NCBI RefSeq assembly: GCF_014863545.1
Contig: NZ_CP062260.1
Span: forward strand, 5,667,501-5,731,500
DNA length: 64,000 nucleotides
Source of the DNA: Paenibacillus sp. JNUCC32
GTDB lineage: Bacteria; Bacillota; Bacilli; Paenibacillales; Paenibacillaceae
Direction: 5' to 3'
Position numbers and translations under genes: made by a program. Shown piece by piece: positions 19,452 to 62,743 of this stretch; the first letter of the stretch is position 1, and each line of letters begins with the position of its first letter. Under the pieces are notes generated by a model that did not search any database, was not told the DNA's origin, and saw only the letters and a list, made by a program, of their open reading frames with translations.

Positions 19452-20342
19452 GTGTCGTTCATGAAGACAAGACGAGGAAAATGGTTCCTCCTCACCGCTG
19501 TAATACTCGCAGTGGCCGTTATATCAGGTTGTGCGCCTGGAGCTGACCAAACGCGTACCATTGAAGACTTGAAAAATGGAGGCTTTTGGCAGAGCAACGT
19601 TGTTTATTACTTTACATGGGCACTTGATACGTTTGCGACATGGTTTAACGGCGAATACGGATTGTCCGTACTCGTGATGGTGCTTATCGTCCGTACCTTG
19701 ATTTTACCGCTGACTCTGAAACAGGTCAGAAGCTCGAAGGCAATGCAGGCCATCCAGCCTGAAATTCAGAAAATTCGCGAGAAATATAAAGATCAGCCTG
19801 AAAAAGTCCAAATGGAAACCATGAAGCTTTTCCAGGAGAATAAGGTTAATCCGATGGCGGGATGTTTGCCGCTGATCGTACAAATGCCGATATTTATCGC
19901 ACTCTATCATTCGATTTACTATAACAATCTCCTTCGTGATCACGAATTCCTGTGGCTGCAATTAGGTCAACCGGACAAGCTGTTTATTTTGCCGGTGCTT
20001 GCCGCTGCAACCACTTATTTCCAAACGAAAATGATGATGAAGATGAACCCGTCTCCGCAAATGGGGATGATGCAGTTCATGCTGTTCGTTTATCCGATTC
20101 TGATCTTTGTAATGTCCTTCCAGTTCCCATCCGCACTTCCGTTGTACTGGTTCTACAGTAACCTCTACACGATCGTGCAGAACTACTTCTTGTACCGCAA
20201 CAATGACAAGGCTGCAGTCGTGGCAAGCGTTGCCAGCGCAACCGAAGGTCATAAGAGCAACAAGAGCGGTAACAAGGGCGGGAAGAAGAGTGGCAGCAAA
20301 GGCGGGAAAAAAGGTTCGAAGGGAGCCAAGAAGTCGAGATGA
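19452..20342 (+). CDS. yidC: Membrane protein insertase YidC/SpoIIIJ (lipoprotein)
   Basis: 296 aa. Inserts proteins in the membrane with or without SecYEG; the Bacillus SpoIIIJ form is also needed in sporulation. The signal peptide ends in a lipobox (VAVISGC), as in Gram-positive YidC. A conserved core follows, including MQAIQPEIQKIREKYKDQ, then MAGCLPLIVQMPIF, and about five membrane segments; the tail is Lys/Gly/Ser rich. The start is GTG 19452 with GAGAGGGG 7 bp upstream; ATG 19461 is possible. The stop overlaps the jag start by four bases. Confidence 0.95.
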   Translation: MSFMKTRRGKWFLLTAVILAVAVISGCAPGADQTRTIEDLKNGGFWQSNVVYYFTWALDTFATWFNGEYGLSVLVMVLIVRTLILPLTLKQVRSSKAMQAIQPEIQKIREKYKDQPEKVQMETMKLFQENKVNPMAGCLPLIVQMPIFIALYHSIYYNNLLRDHEFLWLQLGQPDKLFILPVLAAATTYFQTKMMMKMNPSPQMGMMQFMLFVYPILIFVMSFQFPSALPLYWFYSNLYTIVQNYFLYRNNDKAAVVASVASATEGHKSNKSGNKGGKKSGSKGGKKGSKGAKKSR

Positions 20343-59536: not shown

Positions 59537-61096
59537 ATGAAAGGTTCTAAGGGGAAACGGTGGATGGACAGCATCTTGCGCAAGCAAGCGGCCGATCAGT
59601 CTACCCTCAATCACAACTCAAATCAGGAGTCCCCGATGTCGTCGAATCCGCCAAAGCGGGGGTGGACATCACCGCGCAGATGGATTTGGATGTCGGCAGG
59701 GGTATTGCTCATAGCAGGATCGATATATACCGGCGGAAAAGCTTACGTGAACGCGAATACAATTCCGTTCTATCATGTGTATGTCGATGGGAAATCGATC
59801 GGTACCATTCAAGAAGATGCCCAGCTTGACCAGCTGCTGAAAGCGAAGCAAAAGGAATATCAGGAGAAGTACCCTGATGTGCCCATGGTGCTTCATACCG
59901 ACGGCATCACCACGAAGGCCGACCGTTCCTATAAACCGGTCGTGAACAGCGAGGAGACGCTTCATAAGCTGGATGGCATGCTGAAAGCATATGCCCGCGG
60001 CGTGGAGCTGAAGGTGGATGGCAAGACGGTGGCGATCGTGAAGGATCAACAGACGGCCAAGGCTGCCGTCGAAGCGGCTAAGCTGAAGTTCGCTCCGGCT
60101 GCTGCGCAGAGGGAGAAGACGCAGAGAGTCGCTTTCACGAAAACGTCCGCATCGGCGAAGAAGGATGACGCAAGCGGGCTCGAGTCCGTGGACATCAAGG
60201 AGAAGATTTCGCTTGCCAACACGAAGGCTGACCCGAACAAGGTGCTGGACGTGGAAGAAGCGGTCAAGGTGCTGACCGGCACGAAGGACAAGCCGGTGGT
60301 GTACACGGTGAAAGAGGGAGATACGATTTCCTCGATCGCACAGCATTTTGGCATGAAGTCTGCCGACGTCATGGCGCTCAATCCCGGGCTCGAAGAGAAA
60401 TACGTTCAGATCGGGGCCGAGCTGCAGGTGACGAAGCCGGAAGCGCCGCTGACGGTCAGAACGGTGGAGACGGTGTCGGTGAAGCAGCCGAGCAAACCAG
60501 AGACGATTGTTCGCAAGAGCAGCGAGCTCCCGCTGGGCAAGCGGAAGGTCGTCCGTCCCGGACGCGACGGCGTGAAGACGGTGGATTACATCGTGACCAA
60601 AGAGAACGGCAAGGTTATCTCCAAGCAGTGGACAGGCCAACAGGTGGTTCAGGAATCCCTGCCGGAAGTGGTGTACAAAGGAACCAAGGTAGCACCGAAG
60701 AAAAAAGCGGCAGCGGTGACCCAGAAGTCCAGCGGCAGCATGTTCGCTTGGCCGGTGAGCGGGGCGCGCATTACAAGCTCCTTCGGACATCGGTGGGGAA
60801 GAAGCCATGAGGGCATTGATATGGTTGGCGGAAGCACCATTATGGCAGCGGCCTCCGGAAGAGTGGTCTTCGCGGGTCAGCAGAGCGGTTACGGCAACGT
60901 CGTCATTGTCGATCACGGCAATGGATATCGCACGCTGTATGGGCATATGAGCAAGATTTCCGTCGGCAACGGCCAGTCTGTTGGACAAGGCTCCAAGCTG
61001 GGCGTCATGGGTAATACGGGCCGTTCCACCGGAACGCATCTGCATTTCGAAGTGCAAAAAAATGGAGTTGCCCAAAATCCGATGAAATATCTGTAG
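59537..61096 (+). CDS. LysM-G5-M23 peptidoglycan endopeptidase
   Basis: 519 aa. A basic N-terminus, then a membrane helix (~50-68); a repeat-like region (~75-240); LysM (~258-302, YTVKEGDTISSIAQHFG); a G5-like segment (~310-390); and the M23 metallopeptidase (~400-519) with HRWGRSHEGIDM (zinc His and Asp), YGNVVIVDHGNGYRTLYGHM and GRSTGTHLHFEV (HLH zinc ligands). It cuts peptide bridges in peptidoglycan. Start ATG with AAAGGAGAGAG upstream. The WalR box and walRK 1 kb downstream suggest WalR control. Confidence 0.92.
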   Translation: MKGSKGKRWMDSILRKQAADQSTLNHNSNQESPMSSNPPKRGWTSPRRWIWMSAGVLLIAGSIYTGGKAYVNANTIPFYHVYVDGKSIGTIQEDAQLDQLLKAKQKEYQEKYPDVPMVLHTDGITTKADRSYKPVVNSEETLHKLDGMLKAYARGVELKVDGKTVAIVKDQQTAKAAVEAAKLKFAPAAAQREKTQRVAFTKTSASAKKDDASGLESVDIKEKISLANTKADPNKVLDVEEAVKVLTGTKDKPVVYTVKEGDTISSIAQHFGMKSADVMALNPGLEEKYVQIGAELQVTKPEAPLTVRTVETVSVKQPSKPETIVRKSSELPLGKRKVVRPGRDGVKTVDYIVTKENGKVISKQWTGQQVVQESLPEVVYKGTKVAPKKKAAAVTQKSSGSMFAWPVSGARITSSFGHRWGRSHEGIDMVGGSTIMAAASGRVVFAGQQSGYGNVVIVDHGNGYRTLYGHMSKISVGNGQSVGQGSKLGVMGNTGRSTGTHLHFEVQKNGVAQNPMKYL

Positions 61097-61163: not shown

Positions 61164-61440
61164 GATGGCCGCTCCTTAACGGGGGCGGCCATCTTTGCGT
61201 CTTGCAGGCGGTGATTTGGGGATGTGGGGCAGAACGGGAAAATAGTCTGCAGTGGTGTCGAAAGCGGTATCCTCCTCCGTCGCTGTTGAATTCGGAAAAT
61301 AGGAATGCCGCTTATGATGAGATTTTCCGAATCCAAAGGCGATCGCTGCCGCTCTCCGAATGACACCGCATGCTGCGGTAGAGGGTATTTCCCTTATCTG
61401 TCGGATCCATCCCCGTGTACTCCAGCTAAGCTGCGAAGCG
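61164..61440. repeat. tandem structured repeat, copy 1 (also terminator of M23 gene)
   Basis: Begins with a hairpin GATGGCCGC...GCGGCCATC (61164-61193) that can end M23 transcription. Then the shared body, with inverted pairs GGGAAAATA/TATTTCCC (from 61236), GGTGTC/GACACC, AAGCGGTAT/ATGCCGCTT and ATTCGGAAAAT/ATTTTCCGAAT. It is nearly identical to copies 2 and 3. Confidence 0.85.
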
Positions 61441-61704
61441 GATGGCCGCCCCCTGAATCGGGGCGGCCGTAAGGGAGGCGGTGTGAGTGGGACAGAAAGG
61501 GAAAATAGTCTGCAGTGGTGTCGCAAGCGGCATCCTCCTCCGTCGCTGTTGAATTCGGAAAATAAGAATGCTGCTTAACTATGAGATTTTCCGAATCCAA
61601 AGGCGATCGCTGCCGCTCTCCGAATGACACCGCATGCTGCGGTAGAGGGTATTTCCCTTATCTGTCGGATCCATCCCCGTGTACTCCAGCTAAGCTGCGA
61701 AGCG
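61441..61704. repeat. tandem structured repeat, copy 2
   Basis: 264 bp. Starts with the hairpin GGCCGCCCC/GGGGCGGCC (61444-61468); body starts GGGAAAATAG at 61499. Same inner inverted pairs as copy 1; point differences fall in loops or keep G-U pairs in the stems. Confidence 0.88.
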
Positions 61705-61889
61705 GGTGGCCGCCCCCTGAATCGGGGCGGCCGTAGGGGAGGCGGTGTGAGTGGGACAGAACGGGAAAATAGTCTGCAGTGGTGTCGCAAGCGGTGTCCT
61801 CCTCCGTCGCTGTTGAATTCGGAAAATAGGAATGCCGCTTACGATGAGATTTTCCGAATCCAAAGGCGATCGCTGCCGCTCTCCGAATG
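61705..61889. repeat. tandem structured repeat, copy 3 (3'-truncated)
   Basis: Hairpin GGCCGCCCC/GGGGCGGCC at 61708-61732, body from 61763; identity to the other copies stops after CTCTCCGAATG at 61889. So it lacks the last ~80 bp of the unit. Confidence 0.85.
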
Positions 61890-61954
61890 GCGGACCAGTG
61901 GGTGTGTAGCGGCGGCAGGTGTGGTAAAATGGAAAGAAGACCGTTTAAGTGTGA

Positions 61955-61977
61955 GTTCAAAAAGGGACTTTTTGAAC
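61955..61977 (+). promoter_or_regulatory. perfect 10-bp inverted repeat in the walR leader
   Basis: GTTCAAAAAG-GGA-CTTTTTGAAC, 20 bp before the walR ribosome site. No T tract follows. Operator or RNA hairpin. Confidence 0.55.
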
Positions 61978-62011
61978 ATCCTCTTTAAGAAGGTATGAGG
62001 TGAACAGGAAG

Positions 62012-62743
62012 ATGCAGGGAACCATTCTGGTGGTGGATGACGAACAGCCCATCGCCGATATTTTAAAGTTTAACTTGGAAAAAGAGGGCTATGAGGTCAT
62101 CTGCGCCTTTGACGGCATCAGCGCCGTGGAGATTGCGCTCACGCAGCGGCCGGATTTGATGCTGCTTGATTTGATGCTGCCCGGCAAAGACGGAATGGAC
62201 GTGTGCCGCGAGGTACGTGCCGCTAACCTGCAGATCCCGATCATCATGCTGACGGCGAAGGACGGAGAGATCGACAAGGTGCTTGGGCTTGAACTCGGGG
62301 CGGATGATTACGTGACGAAGCCGTTCAGCACGAGAGAAATACTCGCACGCGTGAAGGCGCATCTGCGACGTCAGCAGAAGCCGGACAACTCGGCGGATAA
62401 CACAGGCGGCACAAGTGCAGGCGGACAAGGCCTGCGGCTGTTTGAGCTGTTTATTGATACGGACATGTACATGGTATATAAAAGCGGGGAAGCGCTCGAT
62501 CTGACGCACCGCGAATATGAATTGGTTTATTATTTGGCCCGTAATGCCGGCAAAGTGATGACTCGGGAACATTTGCTGCAGGCGGTATGGGGCTTTGAAT
62601 ACTTTGGCGATGTGCGAACCGTGGACGTGACGATCCGCCGGCTTCGCGAGAAGATTGAAGAGAATCCGAGCAAACCGGAATATATCCTGACTCGGCGCGG
62701 ACTGGGCTACCTGATGCGCAGCGCGAAAAACGGAGGCCTGTAA
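62012..62743 (+). CDS. walR: Response regulator WalR (YycF)
   Basis: 243 aa. The essential OmpR-type regulator of cell-wall hydrolases and wall growth. Receiver: [14 protein letters not shown], phosphorylated Asp in [34 protein letters not shown]; the match to WalR of B. subtilis is very close. The C-terminal DNA-binding domain has [15 protein letters not shown] and [16 protein letters not shown] 62012 is favoured (GAGGTG 9 bp upstream); in-frame GTG 62000 is possible. Its TAA overlaps the walK ATG by one base. Confidence 0.95.

Follow-up and report, generated by a model that had tools for sequence, protein, structure and literature searches.

A dispersed family of structured intergenic elements in Paenibacillales, with a tandem array before walRK in Paenibacillus sp. 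JNUCC32

What is a structured tandem repeat doing directly before the genes of the essential walRK regulator, and is it peculiar to that site? The question arises from a 64,000-nucleotide stretch of the Paenibacillus sp. JNUCC32 genome (the window), for which the original prediction, made from the letters alone, had offered two readings of the repeat, a regulatory RNA of walRK and an intergenic mobile repeat. Two features extend beyond that prediction: the core of the repeat belongs to a dispersed family, and the strand that folds better is the minus strand.

The array occupies the gap between the gene of an M23 peptidase of LysM-G5-M23 architecture (59537–61096, plus strand; ORF call, Pfam PF01551, PF07501 and PF01476) and the response regulator gene walR (62000–62743, plus strand; ORF call, Pfam PF00072 and PF00486), after which walK comes next, from 62743. 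TRF and a repeat finder delimit it at 61224–61889, with a period of 263–264 bp and about 2.5 copies that are 96–97% alike. Repeat analysis divides it on the plus strand into unit 1 (61224–61487, 264 bp), unit 2 (61487–61751, 264–265 bp) and a truncated unit 3 (61751–61889, 139 of 264 bp); the three near-identical tandem copies originally described are thus real, the third being partial. The spacing of 277 bp given for the first copy is an artefact of counting into it the terminator hairpin of the M23 gene, which lies outside the repeat unit (61164–61200, plus strand; GC stem at 61167–61190, then CATCTTTGCG) and is absent from the terminator-scan output. A GC-rich hairpin had been ascribed to every copy; it lies, with the strand unassigned and by eye free of a T-tract, at 61444–61468 and 61708–61732, and that of copy 1 is the M23 terminator. 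The nested inverted pairs are present as described.

Between the array and walR, a TAAAAT at 61925–61930 (plus strand, by eye; the promoter scan did not list 61925) may be the -10 promoter box of walR. This hexamer lies at most 120 bp from walR in 18 of the 21 genomes read and farther away in the remaining three, displaced by an insert in the leader (by eye). A terminator-like hairpin in the walR leader (61955–61977, plus strand), for which the terminator scan found one against 1.3 expected in shuffles, stands between the walR promoter and the start codon as a possible attenuator, and by eye is missing from G024, G028, G031 and G062. Elsewhere in the window, at 20262–20308, a short tandem repeat has two copies of a 24-bp unit.

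Each unit of the array carries one family element on the minus strand, as recognised by the covariance model R1: 61237–61384 in unit 1 (76.0 bits, E 3.3e-22; this copy, L063, was itself among the 66 rows used to build the model), 61500–61648 in unit 2 (73.1 bits) and 61764–61913 in unit 3 (64.3 bits; positions beyond 61889 are non-repeat sequence). The corresponding cores, which on the plus strand consist of a CGCTGTTG box, a stem, a loop and a CAAAGGCG box, are at 61281–61341 (G000:C1:5728781-5728841), 61544–61605 (G000:C1:5729044-5729105) and 61808–61868 (G000:C1:5729308-5729368). The folding of unit 2 is equalled by none of 200 shuffles on the minus strand and by 4 of 200 on the plus strand, with RNA folding z values of -5.1 against -2.4, and its core folded as DNA gives -4.2 for the minus against -2.7 for the plus strand. 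For the core of unit 1, plus strand, none of 200 shuffles folds as well.

Many dispersed copies had been named as the sign that would set a wider repeat apart from a local element, and many were found: model R1 matches 44 copies in the own genome (E 0.01), 39, 51, 49 and 61 in four close relatives (E 0.01) and 85, 97, 72 and 30 in four further relatives (E 1e-6), hence 30–97 in the eight. The repeat is therefore regarded as belonging to a dispersed family. The pattern common to both of its core types, CGCTGTTG-hairpin-CAAAGGCG, gave 24 hits in the own genome (one of them, L047, stemless and inside an ORF) against 0 for reversed-pattern controls, and across the genus 932 hits, spread over 99 of 100 genomes, where the reversed pattern had 7. 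In the order, which GTDB names Paenibacillales, 58 of 99 genomes, belonging to 18 of 33 genera, carry it, some of the single hits being inside ORFs and looking like chance; other families of the order also carry many paired copies, such as G115 with 16 hits. NCBI taxonomy places Paenibacillus under Caryophanales. Across the class, with stricter filters and the best 25 candidates per genome scored, R1 matched in 11 of 121 genomes, nine in the own family and two outside it (E 6e-8 and 1e-4). Among 119 matches listed in a scan of named genomes, at least 20 keep 8 or more of 12 stem pairs; of the 20 listed, 12 are in Paenibacillus records and 2 are chance-like. Two other loci of the own genome have tandem copies, with a period of about 200 bp, and a copy between nrdA and nrdB (L060, 1501–1560) has the stem type of the type I walRK cores of relatives. 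Loci L504, L051 and L482 are one shared site that has copies in both orientations within about 1 kb.

The conserved core extends over about 140–150 nt. Folded as the strand complementary to the motif, it comprises an outer helix P1, a short P2a, a mini-hairpin of 2 bp, P2b, an internal loop with the mismatched sides CGCC-TTTG / CAAC-AGCG, and P3, a covarying helix of 12 bp. The alignment used 66 rows out of 100 non-redundant copies, chosen for exact boxes and for a P3 with 9 or more of its 12 pairs Watson-Crick, a choice by which P3 pairing is inflated and the boxes are invariant by construction. From these 66 rows RNAalifold derived a consensus of 25 pairs, in which 94.8% of cells are paired, against 74.6% in shuffled alignments and 33–53% with slid partners, and two-sided changes number 315 against 78 in shuffles. 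In an extended fold of 35 pairs, P1 was completed by inspection, and P2a (columns 42-43 with 123-124) and the mini-hairpin (45-46 with 51-52) were added in the same way, these additions replacing two RNAalifold pairs; here 89.4% of cells are paired (69.0% shuffled, 35–49% with slid partners), two-sided changes amount to 470 against 133 shuffled, and the covariation score is 0.558 against 0.190. The count of pairs with any two-sided change barely exceeds that of shuffles (17 of 25 against 16.5; 29 of 35 against 26.7), and the case for covariation is made on the cells and the score, this count being left unused. In helices outside the row selection, 76% of cells are paired in P1, 93% in P2a and 93% in the mini-hairpin, with P2a, the mini-hairpin and most of P1 defined after the same 66-row alignment had been viewed. 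P2a and the mini-hairpin vary on both sides, and the internal loop stays mismatched across the 66 aligned rows, which is partly built in, the boxes being the selection rule. The check for covariation originally proposed thus returned, in an alignment of family copies, a structure covarying far above shuffles, and a shape kept by matching mutations makes the elements look functional.

Which strand would carry that function can be approached through wobble pairs. Of 142 distinct cores, 132 have 5 or more of the 12 pairs; in these P3 shows 80 A.C against 14 G.T on the motif strand, an excess that places the wobble pairs on the complement. The bias comes mostly from stem positions 1 and 6, the figures being 31 against 13 when both are left out, and is confined to P3 (P1 44 against 59, P2a 4 against 4, mini-hairpin 2 against 2). 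P3 therefore points to the complement of the motif strand as the putative functional strand, which reads CGCCTTTG...CAACAGCG and at walRK is the minus strand, antisense to walR and walK.

The array itself proved to be a local and variable feature. A probe of 403 bp (unit 2 plus the truncated unit 3), which diverged arrays in other genomes would escape, matched in 9 of 100 genomes of the same genus; the match lies within the M23-walR gap in 8 of 100, the window's genome included, and elsewhere in G062. The gap was then inspected in 20 relatives. Exact cores in it number three in the window's genome (G000), in G070, in G031 and in G028, two in G032 and in G024, and one in G065 and in G069; G031 has a fourth core with an altered box (by eye). 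Two core types with differing stems occur at walRK, and both are present in G032 and G028. The gap of G010 has no exact core and by eye a diverged unit, that of G051 is core-less at 945 bp, and in 11 relatives a core-less gap of 191–228 bp keeps the M23 terminator hairpin (by eye) and, in 11 of 11, TAAAAT. Such a local, variable nature makes the array ill-suited as a regulator of the essential walRK, and the element that lies there, with the M23 terminator on one side and the walR promoter on the other, is probably a passenger.

Two alternative folds had also been suggested for the repeat. The pairing of AAGCGGCAT with ATGCCGCTT that would underlie the second fold exceeds chance expectation in the copies of the window (equalled by no more than 0.5% of shuffled loops) and, only when G-U is counted, in G065 (1.5% of shuffles); it was not significant in G032, G031 and G028, where 8% to 93% of shuffles were as good. 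Being at chance in three of the four testable relatives, the alternative fold is no conserved feature.

Other features were seen in the same gap. A minus-strand ORF of 98–114 codons, hydrophobic by eye, is present in the M23-walR gap of G032, G069, G070, G051 and G010 (loci L026, L027, L029, L031 and L038); by eye the window, with its truncated unit 3, lacks it. A separate insert of well over 100 bp containing GAGCGTACG..GTACGTGAGCACC is found by eye in the walR leader of L026, L027 and L029 (G032, G069 and G070). It interrupts a GTTCAAAAAG/CTTTTTGAAC hairpin that is intact, and free of the insert, in the window; the GAGCGTACG..GTACGTGAGCACC pattern occurs in 8 of 528 fetched loci, every one from the walR-leader site.

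The history of individual copies was followed at sites shared between genomes. Nine such sites gave 18 pairs, which are not independent of one another. Identity is 90.7% in the element and 81.5% in the remaining intergenic DNA, with gaps at 0.2% and 7.4%, respectively, and conservation is higher in the element in 15 of 18 pairs; the copies of relatives were found by the model and decayed ones are left out, so that the conservation figure leans upward. All three exceptions belong to the L066 site (three of four relatives), where the same intergenic DNA has a T-box-like match; there G000 and G069 differ from each other on both sides of the P3 stem. At the nine sites the element keeps one orientation to its flanks in every genome seen. 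Outside this set, at the L048 site, the element has the same orientation in G000, G069 and G070, is inverted in place as a whole in G032 and G051, has received an insertion of 39 bp in G065 and is reduced to a remnant in G062, and no recognisable copy was found at this site in G028 and G031. Among 38 distinct sites of three genomes, 25 clusters are shared, and in 24 of these the direction with respect to the replication fork is preserved. As far as these comparisons of sequence reach, the shared sites bear signs that structure has been selected for.

The surroundings of the copies are mixed. At 53 copies, tandem ones included, for which both neighbouring ORFs were called, the upstream and downstream ORFs relative to the RNA strand are oriented ++ in 18, -- in 16, +- in 13 and -+ in 6, the downstream ORF thus running in the RNA direction at 24 of 53. 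This mixed orientation argues against a leader switch, and a cis-regulatory leader or riboswitch was rejected on it and on the unrelated genes that flank the copies. With ORFs called by a simple longest-ORF rule, 15 sites of the own genome gave 30 flanking ORFs, of which 28 were scanned and 22 had a Pfam family; the families are those of housekeeping and regulatory proteins and the nrdA-nrdB pair, unrelated genes adjoining the copies at the sites scanned, and none of the 28 scanned ORFs belongs to a transposase family of Pfam. With the replication origin placed by the position of walR, the RNA strand is co-directional with the fork at 180 of 228 sites among the matches listed (seven genomes). 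A larger set, drawn from three genomes, has 152 flanking ORFs, of which 111 share the RNA strand and 125 are co-directional with the fork; the elements there are so in 64 of 76 cases. Flanking ORFs being equally fork-biased, the strand bias does not separate RNA from single-stranded DNA, and with few head-on ORFs the directions of transcription and replication are inseparable in this set; replication-bound single-stranded DNA as the sole reading was dropped, since the flanking ORFs share the strand bias.

A non-autonomous mobile element that acts as single-stranded DNA, similar to a REPIN, has to be weighed against a role as RNA. Here a transposase would recognise the hairpin of the lagging-strand template, and only folded copies would move, which would keep the structure. 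The intergenic dispersal and tandem clustering fit this, as do the stem type shared between the walRK cores of relatives and the nrdA-nrdB copy, the strand logic by which the functional strand would coincide with the lagging-strand template at the fork-co-directional sites listed, and the compensatory stem changes reported for REPINs in the available text of PMC3116915. The Y1 transposase family PF01797 nevertheless had no match in the own genome, in a search whose control was positive in E. coli and 4 others of 14. Within the genus 56 of 100 genomes have a Y1 match and 44 have none, and the mean pattern count is 9.32 in both groups (p 0.70; the exact pattern undercounts copies), an equality that speaks against REP/RAYT for the Y1 type of transposase, which the comparison covers. 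Membership of REP/RAYT was accordingly set aside, neither a cognate Y1 nor a dependence of copy number on the transposase having been found. The direction kept at shared sites and the constrained look of shared copies also tell against mobility, so that of the mobile repeat originally proposed the dispersal stands and recent jumping is unsupported. One copy used as the sole query matched none of 50,697 phage records and 3 of 72,556 plasmid records, all Paenibacillus; of 120 viral-contig hits listed, 3 have a paired stem, and two of the three look genuine. On the whole, mobility as single-stranded DNA appears unlikely, if the foremost of the competing accounts. A phage origin was rejected on the phage records for this one query copy and on the 3 stem-paired hits among 120 viral-contig hits listed. 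The AGCG motif of the element is presumably reminiscent of the single-strand origins of rolling-circle plasmids; that candidate was also put aside, the titles of the literature offering no lead to test.

Pairing could also be kept by mutation alone, if template switching at quasi-palindromes copied one arm onto the other with no selection involved. The inversion in place at the L048 site (G032 and G051), together with the remnant or absence in three other genomes, is what replication errors at a palindrome would produce. Copying of arms sits poorly with an internal loop that stays mismatched in all 66 rows (in part an effect of the box selection), with P2a and the mini-hairpin, which lie outside that selection and are both well paired and variable on two sides, and with P3 wobbles biased to one strand and substitutions and gaps rarer in the element than in neighbouring DNA; mutation bias as the whole explanation is hence considered improbable. 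Lower still stands a regulatory RNA or switch specific to walRK and strengthened by its tandem copies, which we regard as very improbable: the array is there in few genomes by the probe, varies in core type and copy number and is antisense to walR, the M23 terminator and the walR promoter are retained where it is missing (by eye), the alternative pairing is mostly at chance, and the family adjoins unrelated genes as well. In its favour are the position before walR common to several related genomes, the strong fold, and an alternative pairing that exceeds chance in the window's copies and also, if G-U is allowed, in G065. The original proposal of a walRK regulatory RNA is not supported.

Pneumococcal BOX elements are modular in structure. 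By description only, they resemble the present family as small interspersed repeats with several copies per genome, in the available text of PMC3049150. REPINs and the REP-RAYT system, as the accessible part of PMC3116915 presents them, are likewise dispersed, extragenic and hairpin-forming, with boxes around a covarying spacer stem and clustered copies, and a hairpin with conserved boxes and a covarying stem in extragenic DNA is indeed what was found here. They differ in consisting of two inverted REPs, whereas the family has about 140–150 nt with P1, a mini-hairpin and a mismatched loop, shows no tie to the presence of Y1 and bears signs of constraint at shared sites. The bcr1 repeats of the Bacillus cereus group (147 and 167 bp) and related repeats share with it a similar length, dispersal in a group of Bacilli and a conserved stem-loop, in the available text of PMC2267715; a title cited there calls bcr1 specific to the B. 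cereus group, while the present family was matched in 11 of 121 genomes of the class, nine of them of its own family, and bcr1 is set apart by this description, not by sequence. With the structured RNAs of Rfam the family has covarying structure in common, and Rfam 15 gave no match to the element at gathering score (tRNA matches lie elsewhere), on which a known RNA family was rejected. Weak matches below threshold were microRNA models on the hairpin and Thr_leader on the M23 terminator, at 28.5 of 55 bits; a T-box leader match at L066 1645–1927, with 77.4 of 93 bits and so below gathering, adjoins a family element. Within the titles and abstract openings of the literature searched, no description of the family was found, and the accessible part of an RNA-seq study of Paenibacillus riograndensis gives 27 small RNAs from intergenic regions, 3 of which have a known family (PMC5670726). 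The family is apparently uncatalogued.

Overall, and with guarded, moderate confidence, we favour an apparently uncatalogued family of structured intergenic elements across the order, the complement strand of which acts as RNA, with the walRK array as a local tandem expansion of one member. The best reading of the element is an RNA-level structural element dispersed in the manner of REPIN or bcr repeats, with a role that we infer; it most likely acts as RNA, its transcription, binding partner and effect being conjectural. In such a scheme the complement of the motif strand would work as RNA, being transcribed mostly through read-through and then folding. The internal loop would be presented to an RNA-binding protein or a nuclease of the host, the element acting as a module for processing or stability, and slippage and template switching at the palindrome may give rise to the tandem copies, the flips in place and the losses. 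REP-like repeats are thought to serve as processing or stability modules in transcripts. A bolder version is possible, with the chances leaning against it, namely that of a new class of functional RNA with a fold of about 140 nt, a mini-hairpin and an invariant mismatched loop, encoded tens of times per genome throughout the order, sometimes in tandem, protein-binding or even catalytic and untied to a particular gene.

Dispersed bacterial repeats are often taken for mobile debris. The present family seems older and more constrained, because it occurs in several families of one order, its fold is maintained by compensatory changes, its sites are conserved and its copy number does not track Y1 transposases. 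If it acts as RNA, it would represent a structured RNA class absent from Rfam with tens of copies per genome, and its abundance, invariant loop and usable covariance model would make the host role of REP-like repeats directly testable.
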